From: Malikia spinosa
Lineage (GTDB): Bacteria > Pseudomonadota > Gammaproteobacteria > Burkholderiales > Burkholderiaceae_C
Length of the DNA: 47,217 nucleotides
Reading direction: 5' to 3'
Assembly: GCF_002980625.1 (NCBI RefSeq)
Contig: NZ_PVLR01000032.1
Location: 1 to 47,217 of the forward strand
The position numbers were made by a program, and so were the translations under genes. Position 1 is the first letter of the stretch. Each line of letters starts with the position of its first letter. The notes below the pieces were generated by a model that did not search any database, was not told the origin of the DNA, and saw only the letters and a list, made by a program, of their open reading frames with translations. Below, in pieces: positions 5,251 through 47,217 of the stretch.

Positions 5251-6812
5251 TCGGCAGCCGGCTCAAGCCAGCGCTGGCGGTCGCGCTGGGTCTGGCGCTG
5301 CTGCTGGCCTGGCGCTGCTGGCAGGTGCTGCACAGCGGCGCCGGCCTGCATGTCGACGAGGCGCAATACTGGTACTGGTCGTCACGACCGCTGGACTGGG
5401 GCTATTTCTCCAAGCCGCCGCTGCTGGTCGGGCTGATCCGGCTCTCGACCGATTTATTCGGCCACGGCCTGCTCGGCGTCAAGGCGCTGACGATGGTGGC
5501 CTGGCTGCTCGCCTCGGCCGTACTCTGGCGCCTCGGCGCCGCGATGGGCAGCGAACGCGCCGGCCTGATCGCCGCCGCGCTGCTGGCCGCGACACCGGCT
5601 TCCGGGCTGCTGGGCCTGAGCGCCACCACCGACTCGGTGTTGATGCTGTTCTGGTCGCTCGTGATGTGGGGCAGCTGGCGCGCGGCGCATGCCGAGGGCG
5701 CTGTGGCCTGGCGCTGGTGGGCGCTGACCGGGCTGGCGCTCGGGCTGGGCCTGCTGTCCAAGTACACCGCCGGCGCCTTGAGCCTGTCGGCGCTCTGGCT
5801 GCTCTGGCGCTGTCCGCCGGCCCGGCGTGGCCAGCTGCTGGCCGGGCTGGCACTGGCCGCCGGCATCGCCATCCTGCTGCTGCTGCCGCACCTGTTCTGG
5901 AACATGCACAACGGCTGGCCGACGCTGCACCACACGCTCGACATCACGGTCCAGGGCGGCGCGGCTTCAGCGGCGGACCGCGCAGCCGGCTGGGGCCACA
6001 AGCTGGGCTCGGCAGCCGAATTCGGCCTCGGCCAGTTGCTGCTGCTCGGCCCGGCCGGTCTGGCGGTGCTGGCGCTGGCCTGGAAGCGCCGCCACCAGCC
6101 GGTCGCCCAGCCTGCGACGACCGCAACGCCCGCGCTCTGGTCCGCACTGGGCTACGCCTGGGCTTTTGCCTGGCCGCTGCTCGCGCTCGGGCTGCTGCAG
6201 GCCCTGCGCGCCAAGGCCCAGGTCAACTGGGCGCTGCCGGCGCTGCTCGGCATCTGCCTGGCAGCAGGCTGGCTGGCGGTACGCAGCAAGATCTCCGGCA
6301 AGGTACTGGCGACCTGGGTGCTGGCCGGCCTGCTGCTGTCGGCGGCGATCGCGCAAGGCGGCGACCTGCGGCGCTGGATCGGCCGCCCGGCCGCAGCCGG
6401 CAAGCCGGCCTGGGACATCTGGAGCCGTATGCGCGGCTGGCACGAGGCACTCGGCGCGCTGGCACCGGCGCTGGCGCCGCATCGCGACCTGCCCTGGGTC
6501 ACCAGCGACCGCACCCTGCTGGTCCAGACCGGCTACGAACTGCGTGCGCTGCAGCCTGAGCTGCGCTCGTGGAGTCCGGGCGGCCAGGTGCGGCACCATT
6601 TCGACTGGAAGCAGCCGCTGCGCCCCGAGGCCGCACCGGCAGCACTGGTCTTCCTGGGCGACGAAACGCCTGACGCCGCCCTGCTGGCCCTTTATCCGCT
6701 GGCCCGCCCGCTGGCAGCGGTCGAATCGGGCCGGGTCCGGTTGCAGGCCTGGCTGCTGGAGCGTCCTGGCACCGCGCTGGCCACCCTGACACCGACCGGA
6801 CAACACCCATGA
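5247..6812 (+). CDS. GT39-family lipid-linked glycosyltransferase (ArnT/RgtA-D-like), second copy
   Basis: A second 521-residue GT39/PMT-type membrane enzyme, overlapping the first by four bases (ATGA). Catalytic acid pair D37-E38 lies in LHVDEAQYWYW, followed by YFSKPPLL (54-60), the same layout as in the first copy though the two proteins are clearly divergent. About ten to twelve membrane helices precede a short periplasmic C-terminal domain. Two GT39 enzymes served by a single GT2 donor synthase suggest that the same sugar is placed at two positions, as with the RgtA-D set in Rhizobium; that comparison comes from family knowledge, and the acceptors here are unknown. Confidence 0.85.
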   Translation: MIGSRLKPALAVALGLALLLAWRCWQVLHSGAGLHVDEAQYWYWSSRPLDWGYFSKPPLLVGLIRLSTDLFGHGLLGVKALTMVAWLLASAVLWRLGAAMGSERAGLIAAALLAATPASGLLGLSATTDSVLMLFWSLVMWGSWRAAHAEGAVAWRWWALTGLALGLGLLSKYTAGALSLSALWLLWRCPPARRGQLLAGLALAAGIAILLLLPHLFWNMHNGWPTLHHTLDITVQGGAASAADRAAGWGHKLGSAAEFGLGQLLLLGPAGLAVLALAWKRRHQPVAQPATTATPALWSALGYAWAFAWPLLALGLLQALRAKAQVNWALPALLGICLAAGWLAVRSKISGKVLATWVLAGLLLSAAIAQGGDLRRWIGRPAAAGKPAWDIWSRMRGWHEALGALAPALAPHRDLPWVTSDRTLLVQTGYELRALQPELRSWSPGGQVRHHFDWKQPLRPEAAPAALVFLGDETPDAALLALYPLARPLAAVESGRVRLQAWLLERPGTALATLTPTGQHP

Positions 6813-26657: not shown

Positions 26658-28847
26658 ATGAAAGCGAATCTGCAACCACCTCGGGCCGCGAAACTGGCCC
26701 TGACCGCCTTGACAGGCGCCGTGCTGGCCGCCTGCGGCGGCTCGGACGACCCCAGCAACGACCTGCCCGCAGGCATCACGCCACTGAGCGCCTCGGTCTA
26801 TCCCGCCACCACGGTCGGCAAGGGTGACAGTGCTGCCACGCAAGACCTGCTGACCGGCGGCATTGGTAAAACCGGACTGGGCCTGGCCACAGCCCCCGCT
26901 TATGCCGACCCTGCCAACCCCACGGCAGCCGAACTGCGGCGCAATGCCCTGTATTCCAACTACCGCGGCATTCTCGATGGCAGCAGCGCAGGCGGTTACG
27001 GCAGTCTGTATGGCCCGAACGTCACGGCCGCGGGCGCGGTGACCAGCAATGAAGGCCTGATTCCGGGCCGTGAATATGTGGCCGTGCTCGATGATGGCTC
27101 GGGCCGCAAGAAGACCGTGATCGCCGTGCAACTGCCAGACAGCTTCAATCCCTCGAACCCCTGCGTGGTGCTCGGCGCATCATCGGGCTCGCGCGGCGTG
27201 TACGGCGCGATCGGCACGGCAGGCGAATGGGGCCTGAAGAATGGCTGCGCCGTGGCACTCACCGATGCCGGCAAGGGCGTGGGCATCTACAACATGACGG
27301 ACGACACCGTCCACCAGATCGATGGCACACGCGCCAGCCGCGCCGCTGCCGGCAGCCTGGGCTTCTTTGCCGCCAACATCACCGATACGGCCCGCGCGGC
27401 CTACAACGCGCTGTTCCCGAACCGCCTGGCCATCAAGCATGCCCATTCCCAGATGAATCCTGAAAAGGACTGGGGCAACGACACGCTGGCGGCAGGCCGC
27501 TATGCGATGTATGTGCTGAACGACCGTTATGGCACGGCTGACAACCGGGTTCCGTTCACGCCCGAGAACACCCTCGTGATCGCGGGATCTGCCTCCAACG
27601 GCGGCGCGGCCTCGCTGCGTGCGGCCGAGCAAGACGGCAACGGCCTGATCGACGGCGTGGTGGCCTCCGAACCGGTGACCGAAATGCCCACCAGCAGCGG
27701 CTATGGCATCCAGTTTGGCGGCGTTGCAGTGACAGGCTACGGCAAGACGCTGGCCGACTTCGTGACCTACGCCAACCTCTACCAGCCCTGTGCCGCGCTG
27801 GCGGCCGATGCGGCGCTGAGCGAAACCTCCATCTTCAACTACATCGGACTGGTCGGCATGACGGCACGGGCCCAGGCACGCTGCGATGGCCTGGCCGCCA
27901 AGGGCCTGGTCAGCGGCGCCGACACCGCCGCCCGGGCCCAGGACGCGCTGAACAAGCTGCGCGCCTACGGCTGGACGCGTGACAGCGACCCGATGCACAA
28001 CGCCCACTATGCACTGGGCAACGGCCCCATCCTGTCGGCCATGTACCCGGTGAGCTATGGCCGCTTTGCCGTCGATGCCAATGTCTGCAACACCAGTTTT
28101 GCGGCGGTCAATCCCGCCACGGGCGTGCCGGTAGCGGTAGCGCCGACGGCGCTGGCACAGAGCTTTGCCACCGCCAACGGCACCTCCAACGGCACGCCGG
28201 TTGCCGTGGTCTATAACGACTCGGTGGGCGGCGCCAAGTCGTGGCAGTTTGCGGTATCGCCATCGACCGGCGTGGCCGATTTCGGTCTGGACAACGCCTT
28301 GTGCCAGCGCGCGCTGGTGACGGGAGTGGACTCGGTCAGCGGCGCGGCGCTCACGGCCAGCAGCCAGCCCAGCAAGGCCCAGAGCGACGCCGTGCGCGCG
28401 GGCATTGCCGAGGTCGTGCTGAACGGCAACCTGCGTGGCAAGCCCACCATCATCGTCAGCGGCCGCAGCGATGCGCTGATTCCGGTCAACAACAACTCGC
28501 GCGCCTACACCGCCTACAACCGGGTAGTCGAGGGCAATGCCAGCCAGCTGCGCTACATCGAGGTCACGAACGGCCAGCATTTCGACAGCTTCCTGCCGTT
28601 CAGCGGCTTCGACACCCGCTTCGTGCCGCTGCACCCCTACTTCAACCAGGCCATGGATGCGATGCTGGCCCACCTGAAGTCCGGCAGCGCCTTGCCACCC
28701 AGCCAGGTGGTGCGCACCACGCCGCGCGGTGGCTTGCCAGGGGCAGCGCCCGCCATCACGGCAGCCAACGTGCCACCGTTCGTGGCGGTGCCCACGGCGG
28801 GCAACCAGATCGGCTTTGCCGGCACTTCGATCAGCGTGCCGAACTGA
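26658..28847 (+). CDS. D-(-)-3-hydroxybutyrate oligomer hydrolase
   Basis: A 729-residue hydrolase that cleaves oligomers of 3-hydroxybutyrate released during polyhydroxybutyrate breakdown. It has a signal peptide with a lipobox (AVLAAC, Cys26), suggesting export and lipid anchoring. Family-type features include VVLGASSGSRGVYGAIGTAGEWGL, KHAHSQMNPEKDWG and the nucleophile context AGSASNGGAASLRAAEQDG, with Ser313 as the likely active Ser, and a C-terminal GRSDALIPVNNNSRAY...GQHFDSF containing the probable Asp and His. ATG 26658 follows GAGGAG. It has a sigma-54 promoter and a divergent-free upstream activator gene, so expression is probably induced by a signal sensed by that activator. Confidence 0.92.
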   Translation: MKANLQPPRAAKLALTALTGAVLAACGGSDDPSNDLPAGITPLSASVYPATTVGKGDSAATQDLLTGGIGKTGLGLATAPAYADPANPTAAELRRNALYSNYRGILDGSSAGGYGSLYGPNVTAAGAVTSNEGLIPGREYVAVLDDGSGRKKTVIAVQLPDSFNPSNPCVVLGASSGSRGVYGAIGTAGEWGLKNGCAVALTDAGKGVGIYNMTDDTVHQIDGTRASRAAAGSLGFFAANITDTARAAYNALFPNRLAIKHAHSQMNPEKDWGNDTLAAGRYAMYVLNDRYGTADNRVPFTPENTLVIAGSASNGGAASLRAAEQDGNGLIDGVVASEPVTEMPTSSGYGIQFGGVAVTGYGKTLADFVTYANLYQPCAALAADAALSETSIFNYIGLVGMTARAQARCDGLAAKGLVSGADTAARAQDALNKLRAYGWTRDSDPMHNAHYALGNGPILSAMYPVSYGRFAVDANVCNTSFAAVNPATGVPVAVAPTALAQSFATANGTSNGTPVAVVYNDSVGGAKSWQFAVSPSTGVADFGLDNALCQRALVTGVDSVSGAALTASSQPSKAQSDAVRAGIAEVVLNGNLRGKPTIIVSGRSDALIPVNNNSRAYTAYNRVVEGNASQLRYIEVTNGQHFDSFLPFSGFDTRFVPLHPYFNQAMDAMLAHLKSGSALPPSQVVRTTPRGGLPGAAPAITAANVPPFVAVPTAGNQIGFAGTSISVPN

Positions 28848-28915: not shown

Positions 28916-29980
28916 TCAGGCATTGTGCAATGTCAATTCAGCCAGCAACTTGAATTCCTGCAGCAGGCCGCGCACATAGGTGATTTGATCAATAGCCCAG
29001 CGCTCCTCCAGTTCCAGCACCTGTTCCAGACTCATGCCGACCGGGATCTCGGTCTCGCTCATCGGGCGGTAGGGAATAAAAGGATCGGCGTCTTCGTTGG
29101 TGTAGCGGAAGGCTGGTGCGCGGTAATGGTTTTCCTGCTCCAGGCAAAATGCAATCACCTGAGGGGCGGCATCGCCCAGCATGAGCAACTCATACAGCAT
29201 GCGAGGGCTGGGCAAGTCGTCTTGCGCACTGCCCTGCAACACGCCATAGTGACCCCATCCGTGCGGCTCCGGAACAACTTGCACCCCCTTCAAGTGCACC
29301 TGCCGGATGCGGGGCGCCAGCGTGTGCAGGGCGGCCAGCGGCCGCTCGCCGGCGTTGACCATGTTGCCAAAGTCCAGTAGCGCGTTCAGTCTGGGATGGT
29401 TGACATGCGTGAGCAGGGCCATGATTTCCTGGCTCTTGAGTTCTTCGTGCTGCTCGAAATCGAAATAAAGGTCGTGCAAGTCGGCTTGTGCTGCAAGGTA
29501 GCGCAAGTCGGCTGCAATCATCTGAAGCAGCTGTGACAGCCGGCCTTCATAGCGCGAATAGACCCGGATGTTTTGCACGCCCAGGATGCGCGCTGCAGCC
29601 ACCACGCGATCAACGTCGTCCTTGCGGGTGCTGCTGATTTCAAGATGAATGGCAAGACGGTATTGCGCTGCCCTGGCCGCAACGGCACGCAATCCATCCG
29701 GCCCCATGCAGTCCAGGCTGCGCTCCTCGCCGTCCAGCATATGGATGCTGATGCCGCTGAGTGCATGGGCATGGGCGAAATCCAGCAAGTCCAGCGGGCG
29801 GTAGCTGCCATGTGTGAACTGCGCCAGATGCGGGTAGGCATGGGCAAACAGACGTACCCCAGCGATGCGCTGCACCAGCTTGGCGGCGAGGGCTGGTGTC
29901 AGCACCGGGCTGGGGCTGGCTTCATCGCCTGCCAGCTTGTGCTGCATCAATGACTGGAAGCGGGATTGGATGGCGTTCAT
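28916..29980 (-). CDS. Sugar phosphate isomerase/epimerase-like TIM-barrel protein
   Basis: A 354-residue protein of the xylose-isomerase-like TIM-barrel superfamily. Typical strand ends are seen in LAIHLEISST, NIRVYSRYEG, DLYFDFEQHEE, NALLDFGNMV and IRQVHLKG, which supply acidic and His metal ligands (for example E in HLEIS, D in LDFGN, H in VHLKG). Family members isomerise or epimerise sugars, inositols or hydroxy acids. It is the last gene of the minus-strand transport cluster, 24 bases after the HAD phosphatase gene, so it probably acts on the dephosphorylated product of whatever is imported. The exact reaction is not known. Confidence 0.75.
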   Translation of the reverse strand: MNAIQSRFQSLMQHKLAGDEASPSPVLTPALAAKLVQRIAGVRLFAHAYPHLAQFTHGSYRPLDLLDFAHAHALSGISIHMLDGEERSLDCMGPDGLRAVAARAAQYRLAIHLEISSTRKDDVDRVVAAARILGVQNIRVYSRYEGRLSQLLQMIAADLRYLAAQADLHDLYFDFEQHEELKSQEIMALLTHVNHPRLNALLDFGNMVNAGERPLAALHTLAPRIRQVHLKGVQVVPEPHGWGHYGVLQGSAQDDLPSPRMLYELLMLGDAAPQVIAFCLEQENHYRAPAFRYTNEDADPFIPYRPMSETEIPVGMSLEQVLELEERWAIDQITYVRGLLQEFKLLAELTLHNA

Positions 29981-30004
29981 GGGCGAGGCACGCAGGTGCT
30001 GTGT

Positions 30005-30673
30005 TTAAACGGCGGCAGGCAGTTGCCAGCGCAACTGCGGCCACTGGCGTGGTTGAAGCATCTGCTGGAAGCCTGCGGAGGGGTTGACCACATGGGGCTT
30101 GTCCACGGCTTCCAGTAGCGGCATGTCGTTCACCGAATCGCTGTAGCCATAGCTGCCCGACAGGCTGTGGCCATAGGCCCGCATCCAGGCATTCAGGCGC
30201 TGCACCTTTCCCTCGCGGAAACTCAGCACGCCCTGTGTCGCACCCGTGTACCGGCCCTGGTGCTGCTCCAGCGCAATGGCAAGCACCTCGGTCACGCCGA
30301 GGGCGGCCGCAACCTTGCGCACAATGAAGTCAGCGGTCGCTGAAATCACCAGCAAGGTGTGCTGCTGCTGGCGGTGCCATTGCAGCTGTGCCTGCGCTTG
30401 CGCATACACCTGGTGGGGCACAATGCGGGCCACATAGTCGCTGGCCATGGCATCCACCTCGGCTACCGTCTTGCCTGCCAGGGGGCGCAACGTGAAATCC
30501 ATATAGCTTTGCATGGACAGCTCGCCAGCATGGTAGGACTGCATCATGGCCTTTTCGGTTTCCAGCATCGCCGCCGGTGCCAGCCCTTTTTCCACCAGGT
30601 AGGCCAGCCATAGCGTGGAGCTGTCGCAGGCGATCAGGGTTTCGTCCATGTCGAATATGGCCAGCACGCTCAT
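30005..30673 (-). CDS. HAD-IB family phosphatase (SerB-like)
   Basis: A 222-residue HAD phosphatase. Motif I is FDMDETL (D8, D10), motif II is the Ser in VISATADF, motif III is the Lys in REGKVQRL, and motif IV is GYSDSVNDMPLL. The all-helical cap between I and II is that of subfamily IB (phosphoserine phosphatase, CicA and PHOSPHO1-like enzymes), so it should hydrolyse a phosphomonoester. It lacks the phosphonatase (PhnX) signature. It overlaps the ATPase gene by four bases, so it is made together with an importer and probably removes phosphate from the imported compound. Confidence 0.85.
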   Translation of the reverse strand: MSVLAIFDMDETLIACDSSTLWLAYLVEKGLAPAAMLETEKAMMQSYHAGELSMQSYMDFTLRPLAGKTVAEVDAMASDYVARIVPHQVYAQAQAQLQWHRQQQHTLLVISATADFIVRKVAAALGVTEVLAIALEQHQGRYTGATQGVLSFREGKVQRLNAWMRAYGHSLSGSYGYSDSVNDMPLLEAVDKPHVVNPSAGFQQMLQPRQWPQLRWQLPAAV

Positions 30674-31686
30674 GCCACCTCCTGCAGTTCTTCGGCGTTG
30701 AATTGCAGCTGCACCGTGGCGCCTTGGGCGAGCAGGGAGGAGGCCGAGCGGTTGAGTAGATCCACCATCAGGCGGCAGCCACCCGAATCGACCACATAAC
30801 GAATCACATTGCCCAGCAACTGATGCTGCTGCACCACTGCGGGATAGGATTTGCCCTGGTTCGCCAGCGGCGTTTCACCCGGCAGCACGACATGGATGGA
30901 CTCGGGCCGGATGGCCAGATGGCCCTTGACATCCAGTCCCAGCAGTGCCCGGGCGGCGGCGGCATCCAGCAGGTTGTAATTCCCCATGAATCCCGCCACA
31001 AAGCGGCTTTCAGGTCGGGTGTAGACCGACTCGGCACTGCCGCTCTGCACAATGCGACCGGCGTTCATCAGGAAGATGCGGTCGGACAGAATCAGCGCCT
31101 CCTCCTGGTCGTGCGTCACAAAAACGGTGGTCAGCCTGATTTGCTGCTGGATGCGACGGATTTCCTCCTGCAGGTTCTTGCGTATGCGGGCGTCCAGTGC
31201 CGACAGCGGCTCGTCCAGCAACAATATGCGGGGTCGCACCACCAGGGCCCGGGCCAGGGCTACGCGCTGGCGCTGGCCGCCCGAAAGCTGGTGCACATAT
31301 TTGTCTTCGTGGCCACCCAGCTCCACCAGACGCACCACGTCCGCCACGCGCTGGGCGCACTCGTCTGCCGGCAGGTTCTTGACCCTCAGCCCGAAGGCGA
31401 TGTTGTCCGCCACGCGCAGATTGGGAAACAGGGCGTAGCTTTGAAACACCATGCCGATATTGCGTTTTTGCGGTGGCATGCGGGTGATGTCCAGCCCTGC
31501 CACCGTGATGCGGCCGGAGTCGACATCGGTCAGGCCCGCAATGCAGCGCAAGAGCGTGGACTTGCCGCAGCCACTGGGCCCCAGCAGCGTGACCAGCTCG
31601 CCTTCCTGCAAGGAGAAATGGATGTCTTCAAACACAGGCTGCTGGCCAAAGGCTTTGGACAGGGAGGAAACTTCAAGATAACTCAT
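30670..31686 (-). CDS. ABC transporter ATP-binding protein (PhnT/AfuC/PotA-like)
   Basis: A 338-residue importer ATPase. Walker A is GPSGCGKST (36-44), followed by the Q-loop in GMVFQSYALFPNL, the signature LSGGQRQRVALARAL, Walker B ILLLDEPLSALD and the switch His in FVTHDQEEA. A C-terminal OB-like TOBE domain occupies about 270-338. The sequence belongs to the polyamine/iron/phosphonate-type importer group. The frame is open much further upstream, but ATG 31686 overlaps the permease stop (ATGA) and starts the true protein (SYLEVSSLSKAFG). Confidence 0.9.
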   Translation of the reverse strand: MSYLEVSSLSKAFGQQPVFEDIHFSLQEGELVTLLGPSGCGKSTLLRCIAGLTDVDSGRITVAGLDITRMPPQKRNIGMVFQSYALFPNLRVADNIAFGLRVKNLPADECAQRVADVVRLVELGGHEDKYVHQLSGGQRQRVALARALVVRPRILLLDEPLSALDARIRKNLQEEIRRIQQQIRLTTVFVTHDQEEALILSDRIFLMNAGRIVQSGSAESVYTRPESRFVAGFMGNYNLLDAAAARALLGLDVKGHLAIRPESIHVVLPGETPLANQGKSYPAVVQQHQLLGNVIRYVVDSGGCRLMVDLLNRSASSLLAQGATVQLQFNAEELQEVA

Positions 31687-32465
31687 AGGTCTGTCTGGCG
31701 GCTCAGGCGTGTGGCGATCCAGGTCACGCCCAGGGCGAATAGGAAATAGCTCATGACAATGGCGCTGGTGAAATGCCCACTGGTGGCGCGCACCGAAAAT
31801 AGATAGACGTTCAAGGTCTCGTAGCGTGCGCCCACCAGCATGTTGGCAAACACGAAGTCGCCCAGCAGCAGCGAAAACGACAGAAACAGCGAGGCCAGCA
31901 GACTCTTGCGTATATTGGGCAAGATGATCGTCAGGAACGCGTGGGGCGTGGACGCTCCCAGCAGGTGGGCGGCATCCATCAGGTCGTGCACATGGATGCT
32001 CTTGAGCCCGTTGCTGACCGACCGGTACATGAAAGGCAGGGCAATGGTGAAATAGCAGCCCACCAGCACCCAGGGCGTCCCGATGATGGGCAGCGGACCC
32101 TCCGCATACAACTGCAGCAGCCCGACCGAAGACACCACCGGTGGTACCGCGAACTGCATCAGTATCAGGATGTTCATCCAGCGTTCCAGGCGCGGGAAGT
32201 AGTAGAAGACCACAAAGGCGGTGGGAACAATCAGCAGCGTGCTGAGCGCCAAAGTGGCTGCCGCAATCAACAGGGAATGACCAAAGGCCGCCAGGAAACG
32301 GGTGTCCTGCCAGAGCCGGAGGTACCAGTCCAGGGTCAGGCCTTCGGGCAATATGGTGGCGCCCCAACGTTGGGACAGCGAGTACAGCAGGGTGGCAAGG
32401 ACCGGGATGCCCAGCACAGCGGTAAACAGCCAGACCACGGCCTTGTGATAGTGTTCAGCGCGCAT
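31683..32465 (-). CDS. ABC transporter permease (PhnV-like)
   Basis: A 260-residue inner-membrane subunit with six predicted helices (about 10-27, 62-85, 98-118, 130-150, 185-205, 232-252). The EAA loop that contacts the ATPase is seen in MDAAHLLGASTPHAFLTIILPNIRKSL. It overlaps the ATPase gene by four bases and the upstream permease by 11, indicating a single tightly coupled transport operon. Confidence 0.9.
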   Translation of the reverse strand: MRAEHYHKAVVWLFTAVLGIPVLATLLYSLSQRWGATILPEGLTLDWYLRLWQDTRFLAAFGHSLLIAAATLALSTLLIVPTAFVVFYYFPRLERWMNILILMQFAVPPVVSSVGLLQLYAEGPLPIIGTPWVLVGCYFTIALPFMYRSVSNGLKSIHVHDLMDAAHLLGASTPHAFLTIILPNIRKSLLASLFLSFSLLLGDFVFANMLVGARYETLNVYLFSVRATSGHFTSAIVMSYFLFALGVTWIATRLSRQTDL

Positions 32466-33345
32466 GGTAGCTTCGCTTGATCAGGAATTGGTTGACCATT
32501 GCCACGCCCACCAGAATGACGATCAGCAACAGGGACAGGGCCGCCGCCAGGTTCGGCTCCAGCGAGATATCGCCGGCGACCAGGCTGGAAATGCGGATGG
32601 TGACCAGGTTGTAGTTCGAAGTCATGAGCGCGTAGGCGCTGGCATAGGCACCCAGCGCATTGGCCAGCATCAGCACAAAGGTGCCCAGGATGGCTGGCAT
32701 CAGCACGGGAAGCCCCACCTGTCGCCAGTAGGTCAAGCGACTGGCCCCCAGCAGGGCCGCGGCATCCTGCCAGTCGTCCTGCAGCGCATCGAAGGCGGGG
32801 TAGAGCAGCAACACCGCCAATGGAATCTGGAAATAGCTGTAGACCAGAATCAGGCCGCCTTGCGAGTAGATACTGAAGTCCGAGATCCAGCCCAGTTGGC
32901 GCAGCAACAAGGTGAGCGCGCCATTGGTTCCCATCACGATGATGAAGGCGAAGGCCAGCGGCACACCGCTCAGGTTGGAGGCCATGTTGGTGAAGGCCAC
33001 CACCAGATCGCGCACGCTGGAATCCACGCGGCGCAAGGAGGCCGACACCAGGGTGGCTATGGCCAGACCGATCAGGCTGGAGCACAGGGAAATCCAGACG
33101 CTGTTGGCGAACGCCTGTCGGTAAAACGCGGAGCGCAGTATCTCCGCGAAGTTGTCGAGGGACCATGCCCCTTCGTACTGAAAGCTGTTCAACGCAATCC
33201 ACAGCGTGGGCGCTATGGAGAACAGCAGCAGCATCACCATGAAGGGCAGCAAGACCAAGAGAGCTCGCCCATGGCGAACCCCCTTGAATCTGTCCTGTGC
33301 CGAGGTCGAAGCCCCGGCCAAGGCTGCAGAACCGATGGAGTCCAC
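32455..33345 (-). CDS. ABC transporter permease (PhnU-like), GTG start
   Basis: A 296-residue permease with six helices; the first is at about 32-50 (LLVLLPFMVMLLLFSIAP) and the EAA loop reads DDWQDAAALLGASRLTYWRQVGLPVLMPA. The frame is open further upstream but that part overlaps the binding-protein gene. The GTG at 33345, seven bases after the binding-protein stop, fits operon spacing and gives the usual family length (PhnU is about 286). Partners are the permease downstream and the binding protein upstream. Confidence 0.87.
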   Translation of the reverse strand: MDSIGSAALAGASTSAQDRFKGVRHGRALLVLLPFMVMLLLFSIAPTLWIALNSFQYEGAWSLDNFAEILRSAFYRQAFANSVWISLCSSLIGLAIATLVSASLRRVDSSVRDLVVAFTNMASNLSGVPLAFAFIIVMGTNGALTLLLRQLGWISDFSIYSQGGLILVYSYFQIPLAVLLLYPAFDALQDDWQDAAALLGASRLTYWRQVGLPVLMPAILGTFVLMLANALGAYASAYALMTSNYNLVTIRISSLVAGDISLEPNLAAALSLLLIVILVGVAMVNQFLIKRSYHAR

Positions 33346-33352
33346 GCTGGAT

Positions 33353-34405
33353 TTACTTCTTGTAAACCATGACCTGTTCTTGCCACTGGCGCGGAATCGC
33401 CTTGGTGGTGACTTCCCAGCCGTCGAAGTCCTGGATTGGCTTGGCGTTCTTGTACTGCTCCGAAGGCAGCATCTTGTCCTTGGCATCTTTGGGCAGCACG
33501 ACATTGCTGCGGATGGGGCGGGCATGGCCACGGGCCAGGTTGATTTGACCCGCGTCGCTCAGAATGAACTCCCGGGTCAGCTTGGCCGCATTGGGGTTCT
33601 TGGCGTACTTGTTGATGATGGTGGCGTAACCGGCGGTGACGCTGCCATCCAGCGGAATGGAGACGGTGAACAGTGCCGGGTCAATGATGGCGCGCTTGCC
33701 CAGGGCATTGAAATCCCACATCAGGGCCACTTCGACTTCACCCTTTTCCATGTTCGCCACACTGGCGTCAATGGTGGAAATGCGCCCCTGCTTGGCCAAC
33801 TCGGCAAACAGCTTGTAGGCCGGCTCCAGGTTCTTTTCGCTGCCACCCTTGGCAATCGCAGCGGCCAGCAGGGCGCTGTTGGCCTGGGCCGATACGCCCA
33901 CTTCACCCACTGTCACCTTGTAGCTGCCGCTGAGCAAGTCGTTCCAGGTCTTGGGCGGGTTCTTGACCAGCTTGTTGTTGCTGATGAAGGACATGGTTCC
34001 GGTGTAGGCAACCACCCAATGACCGTCCTCGTCCTTGGCCCAGGCGGGAATGTCTTTCCAGGTGCTGGGCTTGTAGGGCTGAGTCACGCCCTTTTTCACA
34101 GCGATGGGGCCGAAGGACTGACCCACGTCACCGATGTCACCGGAGGCATTGGTCTTTTCCGCTTCGAACTTGGCAATTTCCTGGGCCGAGCTCAGGTCGG
34201 TGTCCCTGTGGGTCAGACCATAGGTCTTGGTGATCTGGGCCCAGGTGTCCTTCCAGTTGGCCCAGTCGTCGGGCATGCCCAGGCTGTTGATCGCGCCTTC
34301 CTTTTTGGCGCCAGCGATCAGGCTGTTGAGATCCTGAGCCGAAGCCGTGCCGAAAACCAGGCTCACCGCTGCGGTGACGAGACTATGTACGAGTAGCTTG
34401 CGCAT
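33353..34405 (-). CDS. Periplasmic substrate-binding protein (PhnS/AfuA/IdiA-like)
   Basis: A 350-residue precursor with a signal peptide (about 1-23, ending FGTASAQ), then DLNSLIAGAKKEGAINSLGMPDDWANW, typical of extracellular binding proteins of the iron/phosphonate/sugar-phosphate type. Later segments YTGTMSFISNNKLVKNPPKTWNDLLSG and IPLDGSVTAGYATIINKYAKNP match the two-lobed fold. First gene of the minus-strand import operon and divergent from the GntR regulator. The ligand cannot be read directly; the downstream phosphatase and isomerase genes suggest a phosphorylated organic molecule. Confidence 0.88.
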   Translation of the reverse strand: MRKLLVHSLVTAAVSLVFGTASAQDLNSLIAGAKKEGAINSLGMPDDWANWKDTWAQITKTYGLTHRDTDLSSAQEIAKFEAEKTNASGDIGDVGQSFGPIAVKKGVTQPYKPSTWKDIPAWAKDEDGHWVVAYTGTMSFISNNKLVKNPPKTWNDLLSGSYKVTVGEVGVSAQANSALLAAAIAKGGSEKNLEPAYKLFAELAKQGRISTIDASVANMEKGEVEVALMWDFNALGKRAIIDPALFTVSIPLDGSVTAGYATIINKYAKNPNAAKLTREFILSDAGQINLARGHARPIRSNVVLPKDAKDKMLPSEQYKNAKPIQDFDGWEVTTKAIPRQWQEQVMVYKK

Positions 34406-34416
34406 GTTTGAGTCCG

Positions 34417-34428
34417 TTGACTAGTCAA
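34417..34428. promoter_or_regulatory. Palindrome TTGACTAGTCAA, candidate GntR operator
   Basis: A perfect 12-base palindrome 11 bases upstream of the binding-protein start, in the divergent gap shared with the GntR/UTRA regulator. Its GACTAGTC core resembles the alternating GT/AC dyads bound by HutC-type GntR proteins. Binding here would block the import operon's leader. Confidence 0.5.
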
Positions 34429-34584
34429 AAATTGAGTTTTCATCGTAAACAAGCAATATGACAGGCTTATGACGCAAGATTTTTGGCAAAAACAAGCCTT
34501 CAACGATGGCTTGATCCTATAATTGCACAAAATTTGGGCGTTTTGCACGGAAAATTCGTGCCGCGGCCCAGTGAATATTTGACT

Positions 34585-35358
34585 ATGCAAAATATGTCTG
34601 TGCTGCCAGCCACCCAGATCAGCCACATTCGGCAGACGCTAGAAAACCAGATCGACACGGGCCTGCTGCAAGCCGGGTCCAGGTTGCCGTCGGACCGGGT
34701 ACTGTGCGAGCTGTTCGGCACCACGCGCATCACCCTGAAAGATGCGCTGCTGGCCCTGGAGGCGGACGGGCGCATCTACCGCGAGAAACACAAGGGCTGG
34801 CATGTTTCCTACCCCAGGCTGGACTACAACCCCCTGTACAAGCTGTATTTCCAACGCATGGTGACCCTGCAGAACCGCAGTGTGGAAACCAAGGTGCTGG
34901 CGACCCGGGAATTGCTGGCCAGTGCGACATTGACACGGGAAATGGAGCTGCCAGCGTTGAGCAAGCTGTATCAGATTTGCCGGCTGCGCTATCTGGATGG
35001 CCGCATCGTCTCGTACGTGGAACACTTTCTCAAGCCCGCGCGCTTCCCCGGCATCCTGGAGCAGGACCATACCAAGTCGCTGACCCAGACCTACGAAGAG
35101 CACTACGGCCTGCATTTTTCGCGCTCGCGTTTCAGCATCTACCCGGCGGCGGCCTATGGGGAGGTCGCGCAGCAGCTCAACATTACGGCCGGCAGCCCGA
35201 TTCTGATGATCAAGCGTATCAATTACGACCAGCATGGCACCCTGGTCGATTGTGACCACGAGTATTGGCGCCACGATGCCGTGCGCATCGTCGTGGACAG
35301 CCAGGACCAGCAAACAGCGGATGCGCCGGACCCAGTCCCCGTACCCGCCGGGATGTGA
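34585..35358 (+). CDS. GntR-family (HutC/UTRA) transcriptional regulator, PhnR-like
   Basis: A 257-residue regulator. The winged helix-turn-helix covers about 10-78 (QISHIRQTLENQIDTGLL, LPSDRVLCELFGTTRITLKDALLALEADGRI) and the UTRA effector domain about 95-245 (LPALSKLYQICRLRYLDGRIVSYVEHFL). UTRA domains bind small ligands such as sugar phosphates, histidine derivatives or phosphonates, so the imported compound or a product is the likely inducer. ATG 34585 is chosen; ATG 34594 is an alternative, and a TTG at 34483 would add an unconserved tail. It is divergent from the import operon. Confidence 0.9.
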   Translation: MQNMSVLPATQISHIRQTLENQIDTGLLQAGSRLPSDRVLCELFGTTRITLKDALLALEADGRIYREKHKGWHVSYPRLDYNPLYKLYFQRMVTLQNRSVETKVLATRELLASATLTREMELPALSKLYQICRLRYLDGRIVSYVEHFLKPARFPGILEQDHTKSLTQTYEEHYGLHFSRSRFSIYPAAAYGEVAQQLNITAGSPILMIKRINYDQHGTLVDCDHEYWRHDAVRIVVDSQDQQTADAPDPVPVPAGM

Positions 35359-35367
35359 GACGCGCCC

Positions 35368-35484
35368 ATGCAGTGGCTGATCCTGGTCCTTGCCGGACTG
35401 TTGGAAGTAGCTTGGGCCATAGGGCTCAAGCTGACGGGGCCCCGTAGCAAACCAATTGCTGGCGACACCTCAGGCACCGGTTAA
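35368..35484 (+). pseudogene. N-terminal remnant of an SMR (SugE/Gdx-type) efflux gene
   Basis: A 38-codon open frame begins MQWLILVLAGLLEVAWAIGL, closely matching the first helix of SugE/Gdx guanidinium exporters, including the essential Glu13 and Trp16. After about 22 residues similarity ends (KLTGPRSKPIAGD...) and a stop follows at 35482-35484; full-length proteins have about 105 residues and four helices. The rest of the gene is absent, so it is a truncated relic. It sits between the GntR gene and tRNA-Phe and probably marks a deletion or insertion junction. Confidence 0.8.
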
Positions 35485-35540
35485 GGCAGCCCCCTGGCAC
35501 AAGCAGAGTGCGTGCAAATCCCGCGCGTTTTGTGGCAGCA

Positions 35541-35575
35541 CAAACAAAAACGCCCAACTGAGAACAGTTGGGCGT
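35541..35575 (-). terminator. Intrinsic terminator of tRNA-Phe
   Basis: On the minus strand ACGCCCAACTG-TTCT-CAGTTGGGCGT is a perfect 11-base stem with a four-base loop followed by TTTTGTTTG. It lies seven bases past the tRNA-Phe 3' end. Confidence 0.92.
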
Positions 35576-35582
35576 CAAGTTT

Positions 35583-35658
35583 TGGTGGCCTGGGACGGAA
35601 TCGAACCATCGACACGCGGATTTTCAATCCGCTGCTCTACCAACTGAGCTACCGGGCC
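35583..35658 (-). tRNA. tRNA-Phe (anticodon GAA)
   Basis: A 76-base cloverleaf on the minus strand with encoded CCA. D arm GCTC-AGTTGGTA-GAGC, anticodon stem GCGGA/TCCGC with loop TTGAAAA (anticodon GAA), T arm GATGG-TTCGATT-CCGTC. The acceptor strands GGCCCGG and CCAGGCC pair except for one C5-A68 mismatch, which is unusual; the tRNA still looks functional. Its 3' end faces the accessory region to the left. Confidence 0.95.
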
Positions 35659-35697
35659 AAGACTAATATTATGACACAAGCGCGCCTGTGTTTTGCG

Positions 35698-36099
35698 TCA
35701 GCGCTTGCCGCGCGGGCTGTACGGACAGTGATTGGGACGGGGACCGACCTGCGGATGCAGGCGGCAGGTGCCGGGGCGCTGCTCGTAGACGGTGCACAGG
35801 CGGGTCTTGGCATCGAGGAAATGGCAATCCCCGCTGGCCCGGCGCGCCAGCGTGAAGATGCTGTGGCGGAAGTTGAAATGCTCGATCAGCCCGGCCTTGC
35901 TCAGGCGCTTGGCGATCTGCTTGGGCTCCTCGTGCTCGGCCTCGAACGGATCGACCAGCCCGAGCCGCACCAGGTCCGGCAGCTTGACCTCGACCGGCAT
36001 GGTGCAGCAGTTGGCGACGCAATCCTGGCACAGGCCGTTGCGGTAGCGGGTCCAGGTCTCGGGTCGATCGACGTCGACAAATTGGATCGAAGACTTCAC
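35698..36099 (-). CDS. YkgJ-family cysteine-cluster protein
   Basis: A 133-residue cytoplasmic protein with conserved cysteines at 24, 27, 31 and 32 (CQDCVANCC) and further ones in GDCHFLDAKTRLCTVY, GTCRLHPQ and HCPYSPRG, the pattern of the YkgJ/CxxCxxCC family thought to bind zinc or an iron-sulfur cluster. Biochemical role is unknown. ATG 36099 gives the expected length. It follows the thioredoxin-TPR gene by 25 bases on the same strand. Confidence 0.88.
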   Translation of the reverse strand: MKSSIQFVDVDRPETWTRYRNGLCQDCVANCCTMPVEVKLPDLVRLGLVDPFEAEHEEPKQIAKRLSKAGLIEHFNFRHSIFTLARRASGDCHFLDAKTRLCTVYEQRPGTCRLHPQVGPRPNHCPYSPRGKR

Positions 36100-43404: not shown

Positions 43405-43665
43405 TCAACGCGGCTCGGGCAGCTCGATCTTGACTTCGAGCACCTCGAGGTTGTCCTCGCGATCGAGCTGGACCTTGATATCTTCCGGATTGATGTTGAT
43501 GTAGCGGCTGATCACCTCGATCAGGTCGCGCTGCAATGCGGGCAGATAGTCAGGCTCGGAAGTGTGGCGACCGCTGCGCTCGTGCGCCAGGATGATCTGC
43601 AGTCGCTCCTTGGCCACCGAGGCGGTCTTCTTCTTCTCGCCAAGCAGGAAGGAAAAAAAAGACAT
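43405..43665 (-). CDS. minE: Cell division topological specificity factor MinE
   Basis: An 86-residue protein that stimulates MinD ATPase and drives pole-to-pole oscillation. The N-terminal membrane-targeting and MinD-binding region is [29 protein letters not shown], followed by the dimerisation domain ([28 protein letters not shown]). It is five bases downstream of minD and last in the minCDE operon. Confidence 0.96.
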
Positions 43666-43670
43666 GGTGC

Positions 43671-44486
43671 TTATCTCCCACCGAACAGACGCTTGAAGAA
43701 ACCCGGCTTGACCGCCTCGACGAAGCGCAGCGGGCGCTCATGGCCGAGGAAACGGTCGACCAGATCCTTGTAGGCCTCGGACACGTCGCTGCCTTCCTTG
43801 TGGATCGCGGGCAGGCCTTCGTTGGAAGCCTGCAGCACGGTCTCGCTTTCGGGAATCACGCCGATCAGCCCGATGCGCAGGATGTCATGGATGTCCTCGA
43901 GCGAGAGCATCTGGCCGTCCTCGACCCGGTTCGGGTTGTAGCGCGTGATCAGCAGGTGCTCCTTGACCGGCTCCTTGCCTTCGATCGCGCGCTGGGTCTT
44001 GCTGCCGAGCATGCCGAGGATGCGGTCGGAGTCACGCACCGAGGACACCTCGGGGTTGGTCACGACCAGCGCCTCGTCGGCGTAATGCATGGCCATCAGC
44101 GCGCCGGTCTCGATGCCGGCCGGCGAGTCGCAGACGATGTACTCGAAGCCCATGTTGGCCAGCTCGGCCAGCACGCGGCCGACGCCTTCCTGGGTCAGCG
44201 CGTCCTTGTCACGCGTCTGGCTGGCAGCCAGCACGTAGAGGTTTTCGCACTGCTTGTCCTTGATCAGGGCCTGGTGCAGGTTGGCCTCGTTGTGGATGAC
44301 GTTGATGAAGTCATACACCACGCGGCGTTCGCAGCCCATGACCAGGTCGAGGTTGCGCAGGCCGACGTCGAAGTCGATCACGACCGTCTTGAAGCCCTTG
44401 AGCGCTAGACCGGTAGCGAAGCTAGCGCTGGTGGTGGTCTTGCCGACCCCACCCTTACCAGAAGTCACAACGACTATTTTTGCCAT
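43671..44486 (-). CDS. minD: Septum site-determining protein MinD
   Basis: A 271-residue ParA/MinD-type ATPase that recruits MinC to the membrane. The deviant Walker A is GKGGVGKTT (10-18), followed by [17 protein letters not shown] and [40 protein letters not shown]. The C-terminal amphipathic membrane helix is FFKRLFGGR. It lies 29 bases after minC. Confidence 0.97.
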
Positions 44487-44515: not shown

Positions 44516-45265
44516 TTAGTTGATAGGTTCGAGCACCAGCTTCTCGCCATCGGGACCGGCCTGCAGTCTGACCTGTGCCGGCCGGCCTTGCACGTTGGCG
44601 GGCAATGGCTTGTCGCTGGTGCGATAGACGCCGGCGATCGAGATCAGCTCGGCTTCCAGGCTGGCGGCAAAGATGCGGGCATCGGTATAACCACGCGCAC
44701 CGGCGATCGCCTTGCCGCGCAGCGGGGCAAACACATGGATATGACCATCGGCGATCACTTCGGCACCCGGATTGACCATGGCCAGCACCACCAGATCGCG
44801 GCCGCGCGCATAGACCTGCTGGCCCGAGCGCAGCGGCTTGTCGACGATCAGCGCCGGCAGCAGCTCGGGTTCCGGCACGGGCGCAGCCGCTGCCCGCAGA
44901 ACCGCCTGGCCTGCCGCCTCGGCGCGGGCGTAGGTGGCTTCATCGCCTTGGGCCAGCCCGGCCTGCAGCGCGGATTGCATCTGCCTGGGACTGCCGCCCT
45001 TGACCGCCACCGGCACCAGGTGATAGCGGCGCAGCAGCGGCAGCAGGAAGCTCCACTCCACCGACTCTTCACTGTCGCGCAGCGCGGACAGGTCGATCAG
45101 CAGCGGATCGCCCGCGAAGAAGTCGGGATTGTTGCCATAGCGCTGCTGGAGCTCATTCGCCACCTCGTTGAGATGAGTCGACTTCAGCAACAACGTCACC
45201 AGCTGGAGCTGGGCGCTCTTGACCTCGAACAGATGGGCTGTCGAGCCCGGTGCGGCAGAAGACAT
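44516..45265 (-). CDS. minC: Septum site-determining protein MinC
   Basis: A 249-residue inhibitor of FtsZ ring assembly. The N-terminal FtsZ-binding domain spans about 10-105 and the C-terminal MinD-binding beta-helix about 140-245, with the repeats RSGQQVYARGRDLVVLAMVNPGAEVIADGHIHVFAPLRGKAIAGA that are diagnostic. First gene of minCDE; its start is beside the AT-rich region with DnaA boxes. Confidence 0.94.
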   Translation of the reverse strand: MSSAAPGSTAHLFEVKSAQLQLVTLLLKSTHLNEVANELQQRYGNNPDFFAGDPLLIDLSALRDSEESVEWSFLLPLLRRYHLVPVAVKGGSPRQMQSALQAGLAQGDEATYARAEAAGQAVLRAAAAPVPEPELLPALIVDKPLRSGQQVYARGRDLVVLAMVNPGAEVIADGHIHVFAPLRGKAIAGARGYTDARIFAASLEAELISIAGVYRTSDKPLPANVQGRPAQVRLQAGPDGEKLVLEPIN

Positions 45266-45666
45266 GCAAATAACAGTCAGAAAACATAAATCTTAACAGC
45301 CAGCGCTGAAATGCCAAAAAAGCCATTCGTGCCTCTGCAGCAAAAGCTTTGTGTCAGCCAGCAGAACTTTATCGCTTCTGTTTACTTGAATCTACTTTAA
45401 AAATAGTCGTAGTAGTAGAGGGTAGTACATATCTGTGGATAAGTTTATTTTGTGATTTTTTATCAACAGCTTTGTCATTGCACAAGCCTGTGGACGCTTG
45501 GTCTTTTTTGCTCGTTCCGCGGACTAACAAGTCAGAGAAATATGCACATCCTGTTGATAACTACGGATTAAGCATGAATCTATCCACAGACTTATGAAAA
45601 ATGCCGCCTGGTCGGGGCGGCATCGAGTGGGTCTGGGCTGGGCTGGCAGCGCCAGCGGGGGCGTGA
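45266..45666. other. AT-rich intergenic region with DnaA-box cluster (origin-like)
   Basis: A 400-base region without a gene, visibly richer in A and T than its surroundings. It carries one perfect DnaA box, TTATCCACA (minus strand, 45434-45442), two TTATCAACA boxes (45460-45468 plus; 45552-45560 minus) and CTATCCACA (45580-45588), all within 155 bases. Long AT runs such as TTTATTTTGTGATTTTTTAT lie beside the first two. This has the make-up of a replication origin, though dnaA is not adjacent; a DnaA-titration or DnaA-regulated promoter region is the alternative. The right end contains the CopZ-gene terminator. Confidence 0.6.
45597..45623 (-). terminator. Intrinsic terminator of the CopZ-like gene
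   Basis: On the minus strand ATGCCGCC pairs with GGCGGCAT around a seven-base loop and is followed by TTTTTC. It lies 43 bases after the copZ stop. Confidence 0.8.
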
Positions 45667-45864
45667 TCAGGCCTGGACCGGGTAGCCCTCCTCGGCGATC
45701 GCTCCTGCCAGCTTCTCGCGCGGTTGGGTGGACTCGACTTCGACCCGGTTCTGGCTCCGGTCGATCTGGATCTGGGCTTGCGGGTCGAGCGACCGGATCG
45801 CCTGTGTCACGGCCTTTTCGCAGTGGCCGCAAGTCATGCCGGTGACGGTGAAGATCTGTTGCAT
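45667..45864 (-). CDS. copZ: Heavy-metal-associated (CopZ-like) copper chaperone
   Basis: A 65-residue protein consisting of one HMA domain. MTCGHC (residues 10-15) holds the Cu(I)-binding Cys pair, and the fold ends with the GAIAEEGYPVQA helix-strand. It would shuttle copper in the cytoplasm, probably to the copper ATPase encoded divergently 118 bases away. GAAAGGAAC before the ATG is a good ribosome site. Confidence 0.9.
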   Translation of the reverse strand: MQQIFTVTGMTCGHCEKAVTQAIRSLDPQAQIQIDRSQNRVEVESTQPREKLAGAIAEEGYPVQA

Positions 45865-45982: not shown

Positions 45983-47217
45983 ATGGAACAAGCAAGCACA
46001 GCGACCGCAGCGGTGGAGCCTTCCGCCAGCGAGACGGATTTCGGCGTCGGTGGCATGACCTGCGCCAGTTGCGTGGGACGCGTCGAGCGCGCGCTCAAGA
46101 AAATTCCCGGTGTCCAGCAGGCCAGCGTCAACCTCGCGACCGAATCGGTGCGCGTGCACTGGCAAGCGGACGCTGGCGATGCGGTCGCCATGTCGGCGCG
46201 GCTGCAGCGCGCCGTGCGCGACGCCGGTTACGAGCCCAGGCCGCTCGAAGCGGCCGAGGCCGAGCCGGCGACAGGCTGGCTCGGCTTGCCGCGCGATGCC
46301 TGGCCGGTGCTGCTGGCGGCCTTGCTGTCAGCGCCGCTGACCTTGCCGATGTTCGGCTCGCTGCTGGGCCAGCACTGGATGCTGCCGGCCTGGCTGCAGT
46401 TCGCGCTCGCGACGCCGGTGCAGTTCTGGCTTGGCGCGCGCTTCTACCGCGCGGCCTGGCATGCGCTGAAAGCGCGCAGCGGCAACATGGAGCTACTGGT
46501 GGCGATCGGTACCAGCGCGGGCTGGGGCCTGAGCAGCTGGCTCTGGTGGCGCGCCGAGGCCGGCGAGATGCCCCATCTGTACTACGAGGGCTCGGCGCTG
46601 GTGATCACGCTGGTGCTGCTGGGCAAATGGCTGGAGTCGCGCGCCAAGCGCCAGGCCACCGAGGCAATTCGCGCGTTGCACGCCTTGCGGCCCGAGGTCG
46701 CGCATCTGCTGCCTGACGGCATCAAGCGCGAACAGCTGGTCGATGTGCCGGTGGCCGAGCTGCTGCCGGGCGACCGGGTGCTGGTGCGCCCGGGCGAGCG
46801 GGTGCCGGCCGATGGCTCGCTGCTGCAGGGCAGCACCCAGGTCGACGAGTCAATGCTGACCGGCGAGCCAATGCCGGTGCCCAAGCAGCCGGGCGACCGG
46901 ATGACTGGCGGCAGCCTGAACGGCGACGGCGCGGTCGAGCTCGAGGTGGCGGCAGTCGGCGCGCAGAGCGTGCTGAACCACATCATCGCGCTGGTGCAGG
47001 ACGCGCAGGCGGCCAAGCCGCCGATCCAGCGCCTGGTCGATCAGGTCGCGGCGGTGTTCGTGCCGGTGGTGCTGCTGATCGCGCTGCTGACCTTCTGTGC
47101 CTGGTACTTCTGGCAGGGCGTGGCGCTGGAAGACGCGCTGCTGCCGGCGGTGGCGGTGCTCGTGATCGCCTGCCCCTGCGCGCTCGGGCTGGCGACGCCA
47201 GCAGCGATCATGGCGGG
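45983..47217 (+). CDS. copA: Copper-exporting P1B-type ATPase, N-terminal part (3' truncated by window edge)
   Basis: Open to the window end, so only the first 411 residues are seen. An N-terminal HMA domain has GGMTCASC (Cys27, Cys30). Membrane helices follow from about 105; the actuator domain has [11 protein letters not shown] (TGE motif) near 292, and the metal-binding helix has [12 protein letters not shown] close to the window end, the CPC typical of Cu(I) pumps. The phosphorylation DKTG motif lies outside. ATG 45983 is the first plausible start. Divergent from the copZ-like gene, consistent with a copper-resistance pair. Confidence 0.93.

Follow-up and report, generated by a model that had tools for sequence, protein, structure and literature searches.

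A candidate oriC-type element upstream of minC in Malikia spinosa, its second copy beside polyamine genes and its fixed geometry in related genomes

What is a cluster of DnaA boxes doing between the division genes minCDE and copper homeostasis genes? The DNA analysed here (the window, 47,217 nucleotides) is the entire contig C30 of a draft genome of Malikia spinosa, 3.78 Mb in 103 contigs. A sequence-only reading of it had pointed to four DnaA boxes within 155 bp, one perfect and three with a single mismatch, in an AT-rich stretch of an otherwise GC-rich region, and had offered three explanations: the chromosomal origin, the origin of a second replicon, or a site that titrates DnaA. The box coordinates agree with that description, and A+T reaches 61% across 45266-45600 against 33.5% in the whole window. 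Beyond it, we find a DnaA-trio run and a fixed 118-bp gap between two minus-strand boxes. We consider the segment 45344-45588 to be probably an oriC-type start element, one of two chromosomal copies, which would fire alone or together with the other copy. Below, M denotes this minC-side copy and P the copy beside polyamine genes on contig C14.

Architecture of the minC-side element

The segment 45404-45588 comprises a DnaA-trio run, a spacer, a perfect box A, a box B on the same strand as A and a box C on the opposite strand (Table 1). Read along the plus strand, TAGTCGTAGTAGTAG (45404-45418) is followed by AGGGTAGTACATATC and then by TGTGGATAA, which is box A of the other strand. The trio pattern TAGTNGTAGTAGTAG has a single match in the whole window, namely this run, and the identical run occurs in the C14 copy and in relatives. 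It holds three unbroken GAT trios, then GCT, then GAT, in agreement or near agreement with the published rules; in the accessible parts of the sources, one definition reads 3'-[G/A]A[T/A]-5' with more than three repeats and a GC cluster ahead, and another asks for at least three motifs with a spacer to the box of up to 16 bp. The 60 bp beyond the trio run contain 65% A+T, nearly twice the window average, and by composition would form an AT-rich unwinding side.

Table 1. Features of the minC-side element and its surroundings (window coordinates)
Feature	Position	Strand	Remark
minC, minD, minE	44516-45265, 43671-44486, 43405-43665	-	Pfam: MinC, MinD-like ATPase, MinE
minC promoter-like sequence (TTGGCA, 16 nt, TAAGAT)	45290..45317	-	1 found vs 0.6 expected, weak alone
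Candidate DNA unwinding element	45344..45403	+	60 bp, AT-rich, adjoining the trio run; limits chosen by us; melting predicted
DnaA-trio run TAG-TCG-TAG-TAG-TAG	45404..45418	+	= 3'-GAT GAT GAT GCT GAT-5'
Spacer, 15 bp	45419..45433	+	starts AGGG; between trio run and box A
DnaA box A, TTATCCACA	45434..45442	-	perfect; position conserved among elements
DnaA-box-like TTATCAACA	45460..45468	+	at conserved TCAA..CTTG sub-site; consensus of 85 elements
Sub-site CAAGCCTGTGG, half DnaA box	45483..45495	+	conserved in consensus of 85 elements; putative role
Sub-site matching consensus GAACAACTT	45525..45533	+	consensus of 85 elements
Weak box ATATGCACA	45540..45548	+	one-mismatch site
DnaA box B, TTATCAACA	45552..45560	-	118 bp from A
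DnaA box C, CTATCCACA	45580..45588	+	28 bp from B
Terminator-like stem-loop, then T run	45600..45623	-	transcript end of HMA gene; by eye, scan gave another site
HMA-domain protein, copper-chaperone-like	45667..45864	-	Pfam

With boxes counted at up to one mismatch, their total in the window is ordinary (18 found, 17.0 expected); what is unusual is the clustering, with six box starts inside 45434-45593, including extra one-mismatch sites that start at 45540 and 45593. Four boxes in 155 bp form a cluster by the definition of at least three DnaA boxes with a mean gap below 100 bp. First-order Markov sequences of the local AT-rich composition contained four boxes per 160 bp at P=0.011 and five at P=0.002, and 60 simulated whole windows never held more than three clustered boxes.

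Pfam domains support the neighbourhood as originally read, with the copper-chaperone-like protein of Table 1 followed on its far side by a protein with HMA and E1-E2 ATPase domains. Relative to minC, M is 80-320 bp upstream; within the promoter-like region of that gene, TGTTAAGAT shows little or no variation across seven aligned minC upstream regions. The only RNA genes in the window are two tRNAs. Further away, a full-length gene for a 3-hydroxybutyrate-oligomer hydrolase (3HBOH, E 6.9e-293; 26658-28847) suggests polyhydroxybutyrate use. Over 29001-36000, beside tRNA-Phe (35583-35658), G+C falls to 56-62%; our first impression of an island there was dropped, the scanned genes being ordinary transport genes with ABC-transporter, solute-binding and HAD-type domains.

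A second copy beside polyamine genes

In this assembly dnaA lies on contig C7, next to genes that we take, from their translations, to be mnmE, yidC, rnpA, dnaN and gyrB; with the element on C30, adjacency to dnaA is not seen. The gap upstream of dnaA contains two DnaA boxes, and inspection by eye revealed no trio in it. Across the genome, pairs of minus-strand boxes spaced by 118 bp occur at two sites, the one in the window and C14:38024-38150, and the reversed control pattern had no site in the host genome. The C14 site, P, agrees with M in trio run and A-B spacing, and its boxes are stronger: A and B are both perfect, and TTATTCACA is present in addition. It is flanked by a PotF-like protein on one side and, on the other, by an aminotransferase and then a glutamine-synthetase-like protein. 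About 4 kb from P, in GC-rich surroundings, lies an AT-rich reading frame of 884 amino acids (locus L034, 14370-17024), possibly a recent arrival.

P is present in all five genus members examined, four of them assigned by agreeing flanking genes and the sister species G004 by element sequence. M is intact in three of the five (G000, G001 and G004), where it keeps the trio, the A-B-C geometry and the sub-sites, and has decayed in G002 and G003. In the sister species a single contig carries the two copies in inverted orientation, 38 kb apart, with P at 91,721 (+) and M at 129,620 (-); in G002 the polyamine-side copy is 37.6 kb from minC. G002, besides this copy and its decayed minC copy, has a third site at C8:85152-85306 (locus L159), between a BLUF-domain and an ABC-transporter-like protein.

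A rigid geometry in the host's family

How widespread is this arrangement? A search pattern built from boxes A, B and C and their distances, with the trio left free, matched 118 of 399 family genomes, spread over 50 of 141 genera; 281 of the 399 had no match to this strict form, and the reversed pattern matched none. The pattern misses real copies, for both C14 and genome G252 escaped it and were recovered otherwise. When the order was sampled, the pattern matched 7/12 family genomes versus 2/387 from other families (G523 and G638), which together with the family-wide count makes the element mostly specific to the host's family. An initial pattern consisting of the trio only had matched 98 of 299 genomes and, when reversed, 19 of 299; lone trio matches can therefore arise by chance, and we relied on the A-B-C pattern. 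Named minC loci identify the relatives as Comamonadaceae (Hydrogenophaga, Polaromonas, Ramlibacter, Limnohabitans, Acidovorax and others).

Thirty-odd relative loci, mostly fetched by the trio alone, share one layout: the trio is followed about 27 bp on by box A, box B comes on the strand of A after 118 or 119 bp, and 28 or 40 bp past B lies box C in the opposite orientation, with more than one mismatch in C in some rows. Across 88 distinct copies, gathered with an allowed A-B spacing of 117-120 bp, the distance was 119 bp in 50, 118 bp in 35 and 120 bp in 3. A profile of spacings likewise peaks at 119 (59) and 118 (45), followed by 159 (9), 89 (8) and 136 (8), counts that are inflated by loci fetched for matching and by overlapping loci counted repeatedly. 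Between A and B, the consensus of 85 elements has the sub-sites TTTT, TCAA..aCTTg, cAAgCCTGTGg and GaACAACTT.

Position relative to dnaA and minC

Positions were surveyed in 80 of the 118 matching genomes, picked for longer contigs, of which 78 remained after leaving out G020 and G024; distances ignore circularity, except in G148, for which a circle length was assumed. Element and dnaA share a contig in 60 of the 78, at a median distance of 68 kb. The classic position also occurs, with at most 2 kb between the two in five of these 60 (G089, G186, G200, G210 and G211). For minC, a shared contig was found in 48 of the 78 genomes; the element adjoins minC in 14 of the 48, from 8 genera, lies 10-120 kb away in 21 and at least 120 kb away in 12. 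A separate set of 80 named minC loci contained the element in 25 cases, 15 of them at most 400 bp upstream of minC. Taken together (14/48 and 15/80 against 5/60), the minC side is a recurrent home of the element, and dnaA is usually not its neighbour.

Twin copies and their descent

At least two non-overlapping copies are present in 33 of the 118 matching genomes, some pairs being split over contigs; this count takes the separation in G020 from the trio-pattern search, and the window's own genome, missed by the strict pattern, comes in addition. On one contig, twins are 0.3 to ~100 kb apart. In the large genomes of genus g76 (G079, G194, G271 and G701), two elements lie 98-102 kb apart on one contig, an arrangement reminiscent of the two distant box clusters of C. 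metallidurans CH34, as far as the accessible part of that report describes them. In Comamonadaceae bacterium 2FH (locus L175), inverted elements at 5800 and 9764, 4 kb apart, flank the start of minC.

A tree built from 47 copies over 216 columns places the M copies in one group (support 100/99) and the P copies in a weak one (84/60), and M and P come together (98/93). Likewise, genera g5 and g96 have their copies divided between two groups, with both genera represented in each (97/91 and 99/97). The grouping thus tends to follow position rather than genome, which implies that the duplications predate the species and that both copies were retained. Two other pairs cluster by genome and look like recent duplications: one in G234 and another, less firmly supported, in two named loci.

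Strand composition

Does strand composition point to the elements? In the single-contig chromosome of G099, dnaA lies at 134 kb and twin elements at 394.7 and 398.9 kb. With windows treated as independent, GC skew places the best origin at 390 kb, dnaA being worse by 9.0 lnL; KOPS-like sites favour 350 kb, from which the twins fall short by 8.0 lnL and dnaA by 10.3; and the joint optimum, again at 350 kb, is 5.6 lnL above the twins, with dnaA 11.3 lnL below the twins. In this genome dnaA is rejected as the origin site, GC skew points to the twin elements, and KOPS-like sites point ~40 kb off.

G019, chosen for its minC-side element, has that element at 139 kb and dnaA at 1 kb. Its GC skew is best at 4.21 Mb (dnaA -1.8, element -2.6 lnL), KOPS-like sites give -3.4 for the element versus -6.0 for dnaA, and jointly the minC site leads dnaA by 1.8 lnL with the optimum at 180 kb. 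A preference for the minC side drawn from raw counts was dropped, the likelihoods being split between dnaA and element. Of two local skew minima in G252, one coincides with its twin elements and the other, 170 kb away, is deeper. Within the genus, the skew of G000 is -0.0077 left of P, -0.0084 between P and M and +0.0087 right of M, and local skew around P and M is of mixed sign among the host contigs and congeners. Plain GC skew, taken in windows of 10 and 20 kb, proved noisy, and third-codon-position skew by gene strand gave no help. Skew, proposed as a check of the original reading, therefore favours the elements over dnaA in G099 and leaves the host draft and G019 divided.

Discussion

The description of the locus as origin-like has gained in substance: a trio-and-box unwinding architecture is present, and it belongs to a family-wide element. 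That it is the chromosomal origin is plausible on this anatomy, with the qualification that an intact second copy lies on C14 and that skew in the draft genome picks neither. Our argument for origin function draws on the anatomy, its conservation, the strand composition of one relative (G099) and the precedent of C. metallidurans CH34, and from it we infer DnaA binding, melting, looping and initiation at the element. DnaA would load on box A and polymerise over the spacer to reach the TAG trios on one strand, and the filament would open the AT-rich side toward minC. Boxes B and C, set 118 and 146 bp from A in a constant helical register, would feed DnaA by looping, in the way that a distal box acts through a loop in B. 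subtilis according to the accessible part of the source (PMC6669920). Since the promoter-like sequence of minC is found past the unwinding side, transcription of this gene and initiation may affect each other. If two copies 38 kb apart both fired, forks would meet at once between them and the pair would act as one origin zone; at the 40-kb scale skew is blind to which twin fires, which fits its indecision.

The likeliest rival to an active minC-side start element turns on whether M works at all. P alone may be the working origin, with M an older minC-side origin that is dormant or decaying and at most holds DnaA. We judge this somewhat unlikely, yet it deserves real weight: P occurs in every genus member examined and has the stronger boxes, M is intact in only three of five, and the minC-side position, found in seven further genera as well, may for that reason be the older one. 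Against it, M keeps the trio, the geometry and the sub-sites where it is intact and forms its own well-supported group, and the skew of G000 favours M, if anything. At the other extreme, chromosomes of this family could naturally have two complete DnaA origins, in some cases three, that share an ancestor, were maintained together as species diverged and are both used, with origin identity moving between copies; the minC-side and polyamine-side sites would then be alternative or joint start points. On present evidence we think this unlikely.

It is quite improbable that M is instead a DnaA-responsive control site for minCDE, or a datA-like DnaA sink that links division to the initiator. Its location shortly upstream of minC, and the recurrence of that placement, would suit such a role, but in many genomes the element is far from minC, between unrelated genes, and a sink or repressor would have no need of a trio run at a fixed distance. 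In E. coli, datA and DARS are titration or reactivation loci, non-coding clusters of DnaA boxes away from oriC; to our knowledge they have no trio or unwinding module. The element here has a trio and thus differs from a datA/DARS-like class, marked by an IHF site and the lack of an unwinding module. Pure titration, as suggested at the outset, accordingly loses ground, the trio run being conserved along with the boxes. The proposal of a second replicon, a chromid or plasmid carrying C30, fares worst and is in our view scarcely credible. The assembly is a draft and C30 ends at 47217, so linkage to dnaA is unseen; against this, a Pfam scan of six neighbouring proteins found no replication-initiator family, blastn against 72,556 plasmid records returned no similar element (only a 41-bp match to the HMA gene, in two records), and in G019 and G243 minC-side elements share a single-contig chromosome with dnaA.

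How does the start element that we favour compare with known systems? With the bacterial oriC BUS of B. subtilis, as described in the accessible sources, it shares a DnaA box, a short spacer that starts with GC, an AT-rich flank, 3'-GAT-5' trios on the strand leading away from the box, and a distal box, which here would act via a loop as it does there. It differs in that it does not lie at dnaA, its distal boxes stand at a rigid 118/119 bp, box C is on the opposite strand, and there are often two copies per chromosome. Displacement from dnaA has a precedent in C. metallidurans CH34, where, in the portion of the report available, the GC-skew transition of CHR1 lies ~90 kb from dnaA at a 213-nt region with three perfect boxes, and another four-box cluster lies further off (PMC2864759); that portion describes neither trios nor geometry, and our comparison is with the description only. 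For chromosome 1 of Ralstonia pickettii 12D, two origins were predicted, at hemE and at dnaA (PMC4403523), called by skew, adjacent genes and boxes; the part accessible shows neither a trio element common to the two nor their descent from one copy. The bipartite oriC of H. pylori and C. difficile also has two box clusters with a trio on one side, but these clusters flank dnaA about one gene apart, whereas complete trio and A-B-C copies here are 0.3 to ~100 kb apart.

Trio-type origins, an origin away from dnaA (CH34) and a putative double origin (R. pickettii 12D) have thus been reported before, the latter two within Burkholderiales. We found no printed description of the rigid A-118/119-B-C plan, of the recurring placement at minC or of twin copies that are both kept; our search for an account of this geometry, of Comamonadaceae trio elements or of a minC-side origin is a weak negative, subscription papers being mostly outside our reach.

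What would such an element mean for these bacteria? A rigid, searchable trio element offers concrete origin sites to test across the family, and it explains how DnaA boxes in the vicinity of dnaA can lead origin calls astray. With natural pairs of origin copies, the use, redundancy and turnover of origins would become measurable, and whether one bacterium can use two sites could be tested. Should only one copy work, the element would still pinpoint the origin where skew is weak.
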